Positions 24,328-28,696 are shown, numbered from the stretch's first letter. The stretch is DNA of 61,959 nt from Candidatus Hebobacterum abditum (GCA_029821875.1 JALGXW010000029.1:1-61959), one strand, 5' to 3'. The notes: a model not told the origin generated them from the sequence alone. Program-made: numbers and translations.

Positions 24328-24894
24328 TCAGCCCTGCATCTGTTCCTGGACGTACTTGACGAAGGTTTCTCCTGCTTCGCGAGCCGCGGCCAGCATGTAG
24401 TCACGACTCCGGCGAGTGACAATCATCTGATCGAAGATGGCAAGCCCCATGTGCGCCCAGTAGCGCTCCATGACCGTGAGGCAACTCGGGCCTCCGCCAC
24501 CCCCGCCGCCGGCCGCGGCGATGCCGAGCACCCACTTCCCTTCCACGCGTGGGTCGGCCGGCCCGGCCCGCTCGCAGCGCCGCAGGCGATCGAAGAAGTT
24601 CTTGACGACCTCCGCCGCCTCGCCGAAGTAGACCGGCGTGCTCAGCACGATGCCGTCCGCATCGCTCATCTTCGTGCGCACAGCCTCCAGGTCGTCCTCA
24701 ATAACGCAGAGGCTCTCCCGGCGGCACCTGCCCCACCCGTCATCGCAGGCCAGGCAGGCCTCCAGCTTCATCGTCTTGAGGTGGACCAGCTCCGTCTCGG
24801 CCCCGGCGGCCTTGGCCCCCTCCATCGCCTCCTTCGCCATCGTCGCCGTCAGCCCGTCCTCGTTCGGCGACGCCTGCAGAACGAGTATCCTCAT
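24328..24894 (-). CDS. flavodoxin-fold NAD(P)H-dependent FMN reductase-like protein
   Basis: 188 residues. The N terminus MRILVLQASPNEDGLTATM is the FMN-phosphate loop. A Cys-rich segment, EACLACDDGWGRC followed by SLCVIEDDL, then GIVLSTPVYFGEAAEVVKNF, is the layout of iron-sulfur-flavoprotein-like and NADPH-dependent FMN reductases. The ATG at 24894 is preferred over 24909 because GGGAGGAAAGG lies just before it. A Gly run (GIAAAGGGGGGGPSC) sits in the second FMN loop. It is paralogous to the next gene upstream. Confidence 0.82.
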   Translation of the reverse strand: MRILVLQASPNEDGLTATMAKEAMEGAKAAGAETELVHLKTMKLEACLACDDGWGRCRRESLCVIEDDLEAVRTKMSDADGIVLSTPVYFGEAAEVVKNFFDRLRRCERAGPADPRVEGKWVLGIAAAGGGGGGGPSCLTVMERYWAHMGLAIFDQMIVTRRSRDYMLAAAREAGETFVKYVQEQMQG

Positions 24895-24944
24895 TGCCTT
24901 TCCTCCCATGATGCTCTCGCGAGGCGAAGCGATTCGCGCCCGAA

Positions 24945-25550
24945 CTAAGCAGAACTCGCCCCCTCAACCATTCGTCGTCCGAGCGCTTCCGCCTTCGCCA
25001 GGATGTCCGCTCGCTCACCAATCGGCGGGGCCGCGTCCATCTCCGCCCCGAAGAACTCCTCCCAGTAGCAGAAGCCAGCGGAGCTGAAGAAAGCCTTCAC
25101 CGTGTGCTTCGCCCAGTCGAAGACGCGCCTGTCGCGCCCGCCACATGTTGCCACGAACAGCCCGCGCCGCTCACCCCCCACCTCAGAAACCGGCCGCTTG
25201 AGTCGGTACTTCTCGACCCAGAAGCATTGCCCTCGGTCGATCATCGACTTCATCTCGCCCGATACGCCGGAGAACTGAATGGGCGAGGCGAGTACCAGGT
25301 GCCTGGCCGCTCGGATCTTCGGGTAGATCATCTGCCAGTCATCTCGGACGACGCAGCGTCCTTCCTTGTCGCATCTCCCGCAGTGCAGACAAGAGCTGAA
25401 CTCGAGTTCCCGCAGGCTGATCGTCTCAGCCTCCGCGCCCGCGGCGGCCGCTCCGTTGAGCACGCGCTCCAGGAGCACGGCCGTATTGCTCTTCTTGCGC
25501 GGGCTGCCCAGCAGCCCAAGCACGAAAGGTCTCTCTCGGTCTGATCTCAT
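24945..25550 (-). CDS. flavodoxin-fold NAD(P)H-dependent FMN reductase-like protein
   Basis: 201 residues. The FMN loop GLLGSPRKKSNTAVLL, a Cys cluster SSCLHCGRCDKEGRCVVRDD, and LVLASPIQFSGVSGEMKSMI place it in the same family as its downstream paralogue. The CxxCxxC-type cluster could hold an iron-sulfur centre or zinc, as in iron-sulfur flavoproteins. The ATG at 25550 matches the family start. The two reductases and the cupin probably form one unit, perhaps handling quinones or other small electron acceptors; that is inference. Confidence 0.82.
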   Translation of the reverse strand: MRSDRERPFVLGLLGSPRKKSNTAVLLERVLNGAAAAGAEAETISLRELEFSSCLHCGRCDKEGRCVVRDDWQMIYPKIRAARHLVLASPIQFSGVSGEMKSMIDRGQCFWVEKYRLKRPVSEVGGERRGLFVATCGGRDRRVFDWAKHTVKAFFSSAGFCYWEEFFGAEMDAAPPIGERADILAKAEALGRRMVEGASSA

Positions 25551-25644
25551 GTCGGGATCACACCTGGCGCAGGTGTTGTCGCAGCTGGTCCCACTCCTCG
25601 TGCTGGCCAGCCAGTTTCGCTGCTCGGCGCTATGCTCCTCGCGC

Positions 25645-25675
25645 GCGAGGCGCGGCCCTTCTGGCCGCGCCTCGC
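25645..25675 (-). terminator. strong hairpin after the ECF operon
   Basis: GCGAGGCGCGGCC (25645-25657) and GGCCGCGCCTCGC (25663-25675) form a perfect 13-bp stem with a 5-nt loop, 38 bp after the stop of the Gly-rich protein gene. There is no T tract, so termination may need Rho. Confidence 0.5.
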
Positions 25676-25713
25676 ACGTCCCCTTCGGCATACTGCGTGA
25701 GGTGTGCGGCGGC

Positions 25714-26463
25714 TCAGTCCGCCGACTCCGGCACAATCTCGATCTCTACCTCCGGGGGCAAGAAGCCCGGGGCGAGATGTAGACTCTCACGGTCCCTCAT
25801 GTGGGCCCTCTGACCGAGCCCCAGACCGTGGCCAGGACCCATGCCGGGCCCACCATGCCCACGACCCCGGCCCATGCCTCGGCCTCCCATCGCGCCATGG
25901 CCGCGTCCGCGGCCCGGGCCCTGGTGCATGCCTGGACCCATACCATGGCCGCGATGCCCCCGGCCACGGCCCATTCCGGGTCCCATGCCCCAAGCATCGT
26001 GGCCACCAGGTCCCATTCCGCGGGGCCCGTGTCCTCTGCCGCGGCCCATGCCGCGAGGGCCATGTCCTCCACCATGTCCCATGCCGCGCCCGACTCCCCG
26101 GCCGCGGCCTCTGCCTCCCCAACGGCCCCACCGGTGCTGTGCCCGGTGCTCTCGCACTTTGCGCGCCAGCTCGGGATGCTTCGCGCGGAACGCGTAGAGC
26201 TGGCCTTGGAGCCTGTACATGGTCTCGGCGCGAGCGGCGATTTCAGCCTCGGGCAGATCCTTCGCCTCCGCCAGAGCAAGCTCGAGTCGAGCGATCTTCA
26301 GCTCTTTCCGCAAGTCCTGGGCGTGCCTCAGCGCGGCCGCCTCCTTCTCCGTAAGTCGGAGCACCGGCTTGTCGGGTCGGGCAGGTTCCGCCTGCGCGAG
26401 CGCGGCTCCGACAGCGGCCGCGAGCAGGGCAATCATCAGCAACGGCGTCAGCCTTCGCTTCAT
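25714..26463 (-). CDS. secreted Gly/Arg/His/Met-rich low-complexity protein
   Basis: 249 residues. A signal peptide (about 1-23, LLMIALLAAAVGAALAQ) is followed by a charged helical region (about 35-108) with LRLTEKEAAALRHAQDLRKE, similar in character to Spy/CpxP/ZraP-type periplasmic proteins. From about 110 to 222 the sequence is made of short repeats of Gly-Arg, Gly-His and Gly-Met units (such as GRGRGHGPRGMGP). The C terminus ends in an acidic segment (PPEVEIEIVPESAD). The clustered His and Met suggest metal binding. GGGAGG sits six bases before the ATG, and an ECF-type promoter of its own lies just upstream. Function unknown. Confidence 0.75.
   Translation of the reverse strand: MKRRLTPLLMIALLAAAVGAALAQAEPARPDKPVLRLTEKEAAALRHAQDLRKELKIARLELALAEAKDLPEAEIAARAETMYRLQGQLYAFRAKHPELARKVREHRAQHRWGRWGGRGRGRGVGRGMGHGGGHGPRGMGRGRGHGPRGMGPGGHDAWGMGPGMGRGRGHRGHGMGPGMHQGPGRGRGHGAMGGRGMGRGRGHGGPGMGPGHGLGLGQRAHMRDRESLHLAPGFLPPEVEIEIVPESAD
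25798..26136 (-). repeat. coding repeat tract of Gly-Arg/Gly-His/Gly-Met units
   Basis: Degenerate 6- to 36-nt repeats encode about 113 residues made almost entirely of Gly, Arg, His, Met and Pro. The strand is strongly C-rich in the plus direction. Recurrent units are RGRGHGPRGMG, GMGPGM and RGMGRGRGHG. The repeats stay in frame, so the tract appears to be maintained as protein. Confidence 0.8.
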
Positions 26464-26504
26464 CTCAGACCTCCCTTCTCACTCGGTCTCGAAGCTATCA
26501 GTCC

Positions 26505-26531
26505 AGACGAGTGGACCCCCTCTCGCATTCC
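26505..26531 (-). promoter_or_regulatory. ECF-sigma-type promoter of the Gly-rich protein gene
   Basis: On the minus strand, GGAAT (26531-26527), 17 nt, CGTCT (26509-26505), in the 72-bp spacer before the gene. It matches the element before the sigma gene (GGAAT-16-CGTCT) and the general GGAAC/CGTC or TCTGA pattern of group-IV sigma factors. Confidence 0.55.
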
Positions 26532-26535
26532 GTCA

Positions 26536-27612
26536 TCATGGTTCGACGCTCTTGGCAATCCGCACAAGCTCTTCCTCCGGAAGATCGCCGATGACCACAA
26601 CCGCGATCTCCGGCCCGAAGAACCGAAGCACTTTCTCGCTGCCGCGGTTGAGCAATGTCAGGTCACCGGGGCGGGGGGGACCCAGGCCCAGACCCCCTCC
26701 TCTCCCCCGACCTCGAGCTCTCCCGCCCCCACCTCTGCCGCGGCCTCCTCGACCTCTCCCTCGCCCCTGGCGCTCGCCGTGGCCCCGCGGCTCAAGGCCG
26801 GGGTGGCCAGGATGGCGGTGCTGAAAGATGCTGAGGACGCGCAGGCCGTCCGTGTAGCGGAGCTCCGCGGCCCGCATATGCCAGCGGCCCCACTGCTTCT
26901 CATAGCCGCCCACGAGCACGTAGCCAGCGGGGATGTAGGCGGGCGGGCGAACTTCGAAGCCCAGACGTATGCTGAGCTGCGCGGCCGAAAGGCCAGACTC
27001 CGTCTCCTCCGCGCGCACGGTCTGCCAGCCCTCTGGAACCCTGAAGACGTCGGGAGCTATGACCGGGCCGAACTCGACCCGCGTGTACTCGGTCCGAGAC
27101 GTCAGCCGCCCCTCCACGTTGTATCGCTCTCGACGAAGCGCGAACCCGGTCTCCTTATCCAGCCAGAGCCTCAGCACCACGCGACCGCCGCCCCTCGGAG
27201 CGATCTCGACAGTCCGTGCGCTCCGGCCGGCGACACTGGACTCGCCCACGACTCGCGCCTCGTAGTTGCGCTCGGCCAGGGCCCGGTCTACTGCCAGGCC
27301 CGGCCGATCGTACACCATGGCTACCTGCCGCCGGGGCAGGAGGTGGATGAGGCTCTTGCCATCGTCGATCACCGACCAGTGGCGCCCGTTGAGCCTGTAC
27401 TCGAATCGGAGCTTCCCGTGGGCAGCGGTAACGGCGGCCTCTGCCTCCAATGAGTGGCCATCCTCAGCTGTCATCGTCCGTGCGTTGCCGGCGAGCTCCA
27501 AGCGCGACGAAACGGCCTCACTCTCCCAGACGTCGCTCCATGGTGAGGCGGCATAGGCCGGCCACGCAACGAGACTCGCGAGCAAAGGCACGGCGAGAAC
27601 GCATATCCTCAT
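26536..27612 (-). CDS. RseB/MucB-like secreted regulator with a Gly/Arg-rich insertion
   Basis: 358 residues. A signal peptide (1-22, VLAVPLLASLVAWPAYA) is followed by a LolA/RseB-like beta domain (about 45-195: LRFEYRLNGRHWSVIDDGKS, GRSARTVEIAPRGGGRVVLR, LRLWLDKETGFALRRERYN) and a C-terminal MucB_RseB-type domain (IPAGYVLVGGYEKQW, ELRYTDGLRVLSIFQ). RseB binds mislocalised lipoprotein or LPS signals and guards the anti-sigma factor. Residues 268-316 are an inserted Gly/Arg-rich tract ending in GGGLGLG, like that of the next gene. It overlaps the anti-sigma stop by 4 bp (ATGA). Confidence 0.78.
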   Translation of the reverse strand: MRICVLAVPLLASLVAWPAYAASPWSDVWESEAVSSRLELAGNARTMTAEDGHSLEAEAAVTAAHGKLRFEYRLNGRHWSVIDDGKSLIHLLPRRQVAMVYDRPGLAVDRALAERNYEARVVGESSVAGRSARTVEIAPRGGGRVVLRLWLDKETGFALRRERYNVEGRLTSRTEYTRVEFGPVIAPDVFRVPEGWQTVRAEETESGLSAAQLSIRLGFEVRPPAYIPAGYVLVGGYEKQWGRWHMRAAELRYTDGLRVLSIFQHRHPGHPGLEPRGHGERQGRGRGRGGRGRGGGGRARGRGRGGGLGLGPPRPGDLTLLNRGSEKVLRFFGPEIAVVVIGDLPEEELVRIAKSVEP

Positions 27613-28079
27613 CCGTCTTCCTCCAGGTAGGCAAAGCGCAGCCCGATGGCCGCCTCGTCGGCCAGCGGGGCCGCCCATGTCGTCGGCAGACGGCCCTCGA
27701 TCGTCACGAGCATCTCATCGTCGGGCTGGACGATGATCTCTGGCCCCACATCGCCGACAGGCCCCAGCAGGAAGGTGAGCCCAATCACGATGACCAAGAG
27801 CGCCGCGGCCCCGACGGCGAAGGCCCAGGCCAGACGTGGGCGCGCCGGCGCAGGAGCGCGGTCCGCGATGCGGCGTTGCACCGCCTCCCATGTATGCTTC
27901 GGAGCGGCCTCCAGCGGCACGGCGCTCAGTAGCTCGCCAGTGCGCTCCAGAGCTGCGAGCTCCTCGCGGCAGTCAGCGCAGTCGCGGAGATGCGCCTCGA
28001 CGCGCGCCTTCGCCTGCCCCCTCAGCGCGCCGACTGAGTACTCGGCCAGATCATCGATCACATGATTCCGTTCATTCAT
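27609..28079 (-). CDS. membrane-bound zinc-finger anti-sigma factor
   Basis: 156 residues. The N-terminal ZAS-type zinc finger has HLRDCADC (His-x3-Cys-x2-Cys) near residues 30-37. One transmembrane helix (about 88-107, WAFAVGAAALLVIVIGLTFL) follows, and a small domain outside the membrane ends the protein. Anti-sigmas of this type hold an ECF sigma factor until an envelope signal triggers release. The ATG at 28079 overlaps the sigma gene by 8 bp and is preceded by GGAGGGG. Confidence 0.88.
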   Translation of the reverse strand: MNERNHVIDDLAEYSVGALRGQAKARVEAHLRDCADCREELAALERTGELLSAVPLEAAPKHTWEAVQRRIADRAPAPARPRLAWAFAVGAAALLVIVIGLTFLLGPVGDVGPEIIVQPDDEMLVTIEGRLPTTWAAPLADEAAIGLRFAYLEEDG

Positions 28080-28668
28080 CTGACCCCTCCACATAGTGGC
28101 TGAGGCGCGTTCTGAGTGCCTCCCGCGCCCGCGCCAGCCGCGACATGATCGTCCCCGGGCGGACCCCCATCGCCTCGGCGATCTCTGCCACGGACATCCC
28201 CTCCATATGGTGCATCACAACTGCCGCCCGCTGCTCGGCCGACAGCTCCTCCAGCGCAGCCCAGATCTCCCGGCTCATCTCGCCGGACAGGAGGCGCTGC
28301 TCCGGCTGCTCGCCCCCGGCGGCCGATTCCTCCAGCCGAGGCGGGTCCTCGCCTCCAGCCGCCAGCGAAGTCTCGGCCACCTCCAGGCGCGCTCGGCCCG
28401 ACTTCACCTCGTCCCTCACCAGGTTCCCTGCGATGCGGTGCAGCCAGCCCCGAAAGGCGCCTGGCTTCTTCAGGCGCGACAGCGACTCCCAGGCCCGCAC
28501 GAACGTGTCCTGCGTCAGGTCGGCCGCCAGCTCCAACTGCCGCACCTGGCTGCGTATGAACGTGTATATGCCCGGCTGGTTCTGCCGGTAAAGCGCCTCA
28601 AACGCCTCGACATCCCCGGACTGCGCCCGGAGCACCAGCTCCTCCACCTTCTCCCGTCCTTCATTCAT
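28072..28668 (-). CDS. ECF RNA polymerase sigma factor (RpoE/SigW type)
   Basis: 198 residues. Region 2 (about 20-88) carries LYRQNQPGIYTFIRSQVR and DLTQDTFVRAWESLSRL; region 4 (about 135-188) carries LEELSAEQRAAVVMHHMEGM and VAEIAEAMGVRPGTIMSRLA. There is no region 3. The linker is long and Gly/Glu-rich. Its start codon lies two bases after the -10 element of a candidate self-recognised promoter. It heads an operon with its anti-sigma, an RseB-like protein and a Gly-rich secreted protein. Confidence 0.93.
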   Translation of the reverse strand: MNEGREKVEELVLRAQSGDVEAFEALYRQNQPGIYTFIRSQVRQLELAADLTQDTFVRAWESLSRLKKPGAFRGWLHRIAGNLVRDEVKSGRARLEVAETSLAAGGEDPPRLEESAAGGEQPEQRLLSGEMSREIWAALEELSAEQRAAVVMHHMEGMSVAEIAEAMGVRPGTIMSRLARAREALRTRLSHYVEGSDE

Positions 28669-28670
28669 TC

Positions 28671-28696
28671 AGACGACCCAGCTTTCAGTCTATTCC
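28671..28696 (-). promoter_or_regulatory. candidate autoregulated ECF promoter of the sigma operon
   Basis: On the minus strand, GGAAT (28696-28692), 16 nt, CGTCTGA (28675-28669), directly before the ATG at 28668. The distance from GGAAT to TCTGA (18 nt) equals that in E. coli sigma-E promoters. Transcription would begin at or just inside the start codon, so the mRNA would be leaderless or the true start slightly downstream. Confidence 0.5.

Follow-up and report, generated by a model that had tools for sequence, protein, structure and literature searches.

The locus described here raises the question of what an extracytoplasmic function (ECF) sigma factor partnered by an RseB-type envelope sensor controls in an uncultured bacterium from sediment, a member of the phylum Armatimonadota. 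It lies in a 61,959-nucleotide stretch of Candidatus Hebobacterum abditum DNA (GCA_029821875.1 JALGXW010000029.1:1-61959; hereafter, the window), which is contig C34 of a 4.3-Mb genome that is 95% complete. Four minus-strand genes stand there in the order sigma factor, zinc-finger anti-sigma factor, RseB/MucB-like periplasmic regulator, and a secreted protein rich in Gly, Arg, and Met (the Gly-rich protein), and the first three overlap by 8 and 4 bp, respectively (Table 1). An earlier note on this DNA had described this arrangement, assigned a promoter of the same type to the first and last genes, and taken the Gly-rich protein to be the main inducible, and perhaps metal-binding, output. The arrangement is as that note had it. 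We consider it probable that the locus encodes a sigma-E/RseA/RseB-type envelope-stress circuit, and that its regulon is wider than the locus itself, with a MacAB-TolC-type export operon and, in some genomes, a structured RNA among the predicted targets.

Among named relatives, the locus is closest to metagenome-assembled genomes of Candidatus Hebobacteria, which was described as a class from anoxic marine sediment (PMC10290634), and of other Armatimonadota; several of these assemblies are fragmentary. Among the genomes compared, G001 belongs to the same genus, G002 to the same family, and G012 to the same class, while G016, G043, and G054 represent other classes of the phylum. All of our conclusions on promoters and regulon come from comparison of sequences. 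A literature search found no study of such an ECF circuit in Armatimonadota. The comparison offers a testable definition of an ECF regulon in this phylum, in which an RseB-type envelope sensor would be linked to a tripartite export pump and to an unclassified family of secreted proteins rich in Arg and Gly (RG-rich).

A probable RseB-type sigma factor circuit

The sigma factor consists of regions 2 and 4 alone, with a short linker between them (Sigma70_r2 at residues 26-92 and Sigma70_r4_2 at 133-185), as is typical of the ECF group. It also scores over the TIGR02937 cut-off, and the solved chains closest to it are SigE, SigH/AlgU, RpoE, and SigW. The anti-sigma factor carries the H-x3-C-x2-C signature of zinc-binding anti-sigma proteins, with H30, C34, and C37 invariant in all 10 sequences. 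Beyond its hydrophobic segment, the periplasmic tail contains six further residues (W135, P138, L139, D141, A143, and G146) that are invariant in ten relatives drawn from several classes, and we propose that this peptide is a putative docking site for the RseB-like protein.

The identity of the third gene product is clearest from its predicted structure. With the AlphaFold2 model (predicted local distance difference test [pLDDT] score of 79) as the Foldseek query, the first match was E. coli RseB (2v42; E value of 1.3e-17) and the second was P. aeruginosa MucB (solved with MucA). The N-terminal LolA-like domain scores 51.2 bits against PF03888 (cut-off, 22.3), and the C-terminal MucB_RseB_C domain scores 21.9 bits against PF17188, under the cut-off of 30.1; the model aligns over both domains. 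The disordered loop in the C-terminal domain is also RG-rich in relatives. Proteases of the kinds that act in known RseA pathways are encoded elsewhere in the genome: there is an RseP-type site-2 protease homologue (TIGR00054, 206.4 bits; cut-off, 147.55), and there are several members of the HtrA/DegP family, the best of which scores 293.7 bits, under the DegP cut-off of 416.2. The domains, the RseB fold match, and the invariant zinc ligands together bear out the identification of an ECF sigma/zinc-finger anti-sigma/RseB circuit in the earlier note.

Table 1. Features of the locus (window coordinates) and of the structured RNA found in related genomes
Feature	Position	Strand	Remarks
ECF promoter 1, GGAAT-N16-CGTCT, before sigma gene	28671..28696	-	Core kept, spacer diverged, across Armatimonadota
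ECF sigma factor gene	28072..28668	-	Regions 2 and 4; Sigma70_r4_2 1.1e-18, Sigma70_r2 3.6e-15
GTG, codon 8 of listed sigma reading frame, candidate true start	28645..28647	-	Kept in all six family members
Zinc-finger, single-transmembrane-segment anti-sigma gene	27609..28079	-	zf-HC2 4.6e-5 (over cut-off); NF052375 4.3e-16
Anti-sigma zinc-binding motif H30-x3-C34-x2-C37	27969..27992	-	Invariant in 10 relatives
Anti-sigma periplasmic motif W135-x2-P-L-x-D-x-A-x2-G146	27642..27677	-	Invariant columns
RseB/MucB-like periplasmic regulator gene	26536..27612	-	MucB_RseB 1.5e-13; AlphaFold2 model match to RseB
Disordered Gly/Arg-rich loop in C-terminal domain of RseB-like protein, residues 270-311	26680..26805	-	pLDDT <50
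ECF promoter 2, GGAAT-N17-CGTCT, in 72-nt gap before Gly-rich gene	26505..26531	-	Conserved in relatives
Secreted Gly/Arg/Met-rich protein gene	25714..26463	-	Signal peptide, helical hairpin, RG-rich tail
Predicted helical hairpin of Gly-rich protein, residues 39-116	26116..26349	-	AlphaFold2 mean pLDDT 91-98 over residues 41-100
Structured RNA	G000:C95:63293-63455		CCCGTCCGTCACG block and long covarying hairpin
Structured RNA	G001:C331:7226-7387		CCCGTCCGTCACG block and long covarying hairpin
Structured RNA	G003:C273:3586-3761		CCCGTCCGTCACG block and long covarying hairpin
Structured RNA	G005:C74:1004-1128		CCCGTCCGTCACG block and long covarying hairpin

In this regard, the locus resembles both the RpoE-RseA-RseB system of E. 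coli and the AlgU-MucA-MucB system of P. aeruginosa, with which it shares the gene order (sigma, anti-sigma, RseB), the RseB/MucB fold, a membrane anti-sigma factor, the presence of RseP-type and HtrA-family proteases, and, as judged from promoter 1, probable autoregulation. However, it differs from these systems in its zinc-finger anti-sigma factor, the RG-rich loop of its RseB-like protein, the secreted Gly-rich protein behind a second promoter, the MacAB-TolC-type operon as a putative target, and the -10 box CGTCT, and it belongs to a different phylum.

Two promoters and their conservation

Both promoters are present where the earlier note had placed them, and they are the only exact matches to GGAAT-N16/17-CGTCT in the window (0.26 expected; two matches were reached in 2 of 100 shuffles). 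ECF sigma factors typically recognize an AAC-type -35 and a CGT-type -10 element, regulate their own genes, and are cotranscribed with their anti-sigma factors (PMC8103513). Here, the -35 box is GGAAT (with AAT), the -10 box is CGTCT, the motif before the sigma gene is conserved, and the genes overlap; as judged from sequence, autoregulation through promoter 1 appears likely. A literature search found no paper pairing GGAAT with CGTCT.

The strong evidence for these promoters is their position and conservation, which are direct observations, as is the gene content. In G001 and G002, both boxes are exact while the spacers differ. Both promoters also occur in G012, G016, G043, and G054 (with one mismatch at the G012 sigma promoter), and the second is present in G018. 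Across RseB-bearing loci of the phylum, 12 of the 29 regions before sigma genes and 9 of the 35 after rseB carry the motif, where dinucleotide shuffles gave expectations of 0.07 and 0.23; the motif-bearing regions cluster in the closest relatives, and none are found in distant paralogues. The comparison of homologous loci thus came out in favor of both motifs. What stands behind the second promoter is not constant: Hebobacteria, G012, and G018 have a secreted Gly-rich protein there, but Chthonomonadia (L036, L038, and L040) have a small secreted DUF5666-like protein. Since the downstream gene varies between groups, the second promoter is best described as a conserved slot rather than as the promoter of a fixed gene.

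Promoter 1 also bears on where sigma translation begins, a point that the earlier note had missed. In every family relative checked, the ATG lies only 2 nt past the end of the -10 box, so that a transcript from this promoter would probably begin at the ATG or after it. A GAGGA-like sequence stands 9 to 12 nt upstream of the conserved GTG at codon 8. Translation may be leaderless, or the true start may be this GTG.

A MacAB-TolC-type operon as a putative target

Pattern searches across the family, with reading of the genes downstream, led to an HlyD/MacA-like adaptor gene, encoded elsewhere, that the motif precedes at a distance of about 40 nt. The adaptor leads an operon for a MacB-type permease (MacB_PCD), a TolC-type outer membrane protein (OEP), and an ATP-binding cassette (ABC) ATPase. 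As in the MacAB-TolC exporter, then, adaptor, permease, outer membrane factor, and ATPase are encoded together. The permease and ATPase are separate genes here, unlike in E. coli, whose MacB is one fused protein.

The adaptor orthologues of G000, G001, G004, G006, and G007 all have the motif at the same place, and that of G002 has it there with one mismatch (CGTCA); these six are all of the family orthologues found. No motif stands before the orthologues of two genomes outside the family, G010 (62% identity) and G008 (58%), whose RseB-like proteins are only distant, or before any of the 17 more distant adaptors examined (paralogues). The motif at the adaptor therefore co-occurs with this circuit, which is the best evidence that it belongs to this sigma factor, and judged from its promoter, the operon appears to be a further, conserved target. 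A literature search found no paper pairing ECF sigma factors with MacA or MacB.

A TolC-led operon in G003 and G006, with genes for HlyD-type adaptors, an ABC ATPase, and a MacB-type permease, also has the motif in front of it, at a distance of 154 nt (G003:C101:16719 and G006:C274:3205). We assign this operon to the regulon only tentatively: its two motif sites hardly differ from each other, which makes their conservation uninformative, and the motif is missing from the G012 orthologue.

A structured RNA behind the same promoter

Of the eight family genomes, four (G000, G001, G003, and G005) contain exactly one copy each of an RNA element that lies 45 to 100 nt past the start of a GGAAT-N17-CGTCT promoter. 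It reads CCCGTCCGTCACG...GTGACGATGCC, then a long GC hairpin, then GTGTGG, and its predicted fold is a small two-hairpin junction. Five pairs of the long hairpin have changed on both sides in compensatory fashion among the four sequences; 97.9% of alignment cells are paired, versus 93.4% after shuffling, and sliding the partners destroys the pairing. Moreover, the hairpin differs in length symmetrically, by two bases per arm, a pattern that RNA, but not protein, would be expected to show. No relevant Rfam match was found up to an E value of 5, and when 291 genomes of the phylum were searched with a covariance model, no additional convincing member emerged. Weak matches (G009, G087, G097, G003:C58, G004:C195, and others) were rejected for want of an upstream promoter; of those that were read, most were terminator-like hairpins or coding sequence. 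A G002 match to CCCGTCCGTCACG was rejected likewise, as it has neither promoter nor structure.

We regard this element as a candidate sigma-driven small-RNA gene, with support from only four sequences. One alternative is that it is a cis-acting, riboswitch-like leader rather than a trans-acting RNA: about 226 nt separate the motif from a ThuA-like gene in G000 and G001, with the RNA block in between, and this gene follows the RNA on the same strand at a distance of about 150 nt. However, the downstream genes vary between genera (ThuA, ThuA, and uroD-like, with a convergent gene in G005), whereas it is the divergent upstream neighbor of the promoter, a spermidine-synthase-like gene, that is constant in all four genomes. 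Given also that Rfam offered no riboswitch match, we think a leader unlikely, although it is the strongest of the alternatives considered here. In E. coli, the small RNAs MicA, RybB, and MicL are under RpoE control (PMC8103513). The RNA described here is a candidate for such control by a sigma-E-like factor outside the Proteobacteria, and it bears on whether envelope-stress responses recurrently include an RNA arm. A fuller proposal, to which we give somewhat less than an even chance, is that the circuit has, behind the same kind of ECF promoter, a structured small RNA not described before that serves Armatimonadota envelope-stress control in parallel with (but unrelated to) MicA/RybB and that the RG-rich secreted protein and the RG-rich sensor loop form a feedback pair.

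Proposed circuit and ownership of the promoters

How might such a circuit work? Guarding, ligand release, and stepwise proteolysis are modeled on RpoE/RseA/RseB (PMC8103513); the activation, the ligand, and the biochemical roles are inferred. In the resting cell, the zinc-finger anti-sigma factor would tether the sigma factor to the inner membrane, and its own periplasmic tail would be guarded by the RseB-like protein, with the conserved W-P-L-D-A-G peptide as the probable site. Release of the RseB-like protein by an envelope ligand would let HtrA-type and RseP-type proteases cut the anti-sigma factor stepwise and free the sigma factor. The latter would then take RNA polymerase to GGAAT-N16/17-CGTCT promoters, namely, those of its own operon, the Gly/Arg/Met-rich secreted protein, the MacAB-TolC-type operon, and, where present, the structured RNA. 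The output may be increased export across the envelope, a periplasm buffered by the RG/Met-rich hairpin protein, and post-transcriptional control in genomes that hold the RNA.

Several points weigh against this reading. The genome-wide excess of the motif that the earlier note had anticipated is there but is modest (30 matches for N15-18 versus 8 for the reversed pattern), against a background of about 1.3 per spacing at neighboring spacings (TCGTCT form); given this modest enrichment, we dropped the count as proof in favor of conservation. The RNA was not found in G002, G004, G006, or G007. The G001 assembly shows a sigma reading frame that breaks off after about 56 codons (L115:882-1394), through either an assembly error or a lesion, with the promoter and downstream genes still intact. 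No family match was obtained for the Gly-rich protein, which leaves its proposed role a guess.

Finally, another ECF sigma factor of the genome could share the motif. ECF sigma factors often have similar -35 and -10 boxes; the promoters might then be real but owned by, or shared with, a different factor of which this sigma gene is merely one target. This seems to us rather improbable, as most close relatives have the motif before their own copy of this sigma gene, and it is missing before the MacA orthologues of the two genomes that lack close relatives of the circuit.

The Gly-rich secreted protein

With control by the sigma factor of this locus as the preferred reading, the question is what the Gly-rich protein contributes. 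The protein has its own second promoter, as the earlier note had claimed, and this promoter is conserved in relatives. Its standing as the main output was not sustained, because the same promoter precedes the MacAB-TolC-type operon and the structured RNA and because a DUF5666-like gene replaces it in Chthonomonadia. Most likely, it is a periplasmic stress-buffering or scavenging protein consisting of a hairpin and a disordered RG/Met-rich tail, with the role itself a guess. In the family and in G012, the tail is 30 to 39% Gly, 13 to 18% Arg, and 7 to 17% Met, with no or almost no Lys; the G018 protein has two helical-hairpin repeats.

The protein is like the ZraP/Spy/CpxP chaperones in having a signal peptide, a helical hairpin, a low-complexity tail, and a stress-type promoter but unlike them in showing no significant match in sequence or fold. 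No significant family, PDB, or fold match was obtained in Pfam, profile, PDB, and Foldseek searches, and on this basis we rejected membership in the ZraP/CnrX/Spy group. The best Foldseek matches to the hairpin were designed coiled coils (E value of 0.22), and ZraP (3lay) was matched at an E value of 0.73. A metal-binding periplasmic protein (ZraP, CnrX, or SilE-like) that is also the main inducible output could find encouragement in the conserved promoter, the Met- and His-containing tail, the hairpin, and this weak ZraP match. However, tail His falls from 9% to 0% across orthologues, whereas Gly, Arg, and Met persist, and MxxH/HxxM motifs are almost lacking. As histidine is not conserved, we rejected a metal-binding tail, and we consider this combination of roles quite unlikely, the more so given the other conserved promoter targets.

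Least probable, and frankly speculative, is that the Gly-rich protein feeds back on the sensor, its RG tail competing with the RseB-like RG loop for the same anionic ligand, or binding that loop, and so resetting the circuit: both operon proteins have low-complexity Gly/Arg segments, and that of the RseB-like protein is a disordered loop in its C-terminal domain, but shared composition alone is a weak argument, and Chthonomonad RseB-like proteins retain the RG segment despite the different protein at their second promoter.

After the Gly-rich gene, the window holds one or more flavoprotein genes of the NADPH-dependent FMN reductase/iron-sulfur flavoprotein type (24328-25736), and this neighbor recurs in several family members (L064, L066, L115, and L116).

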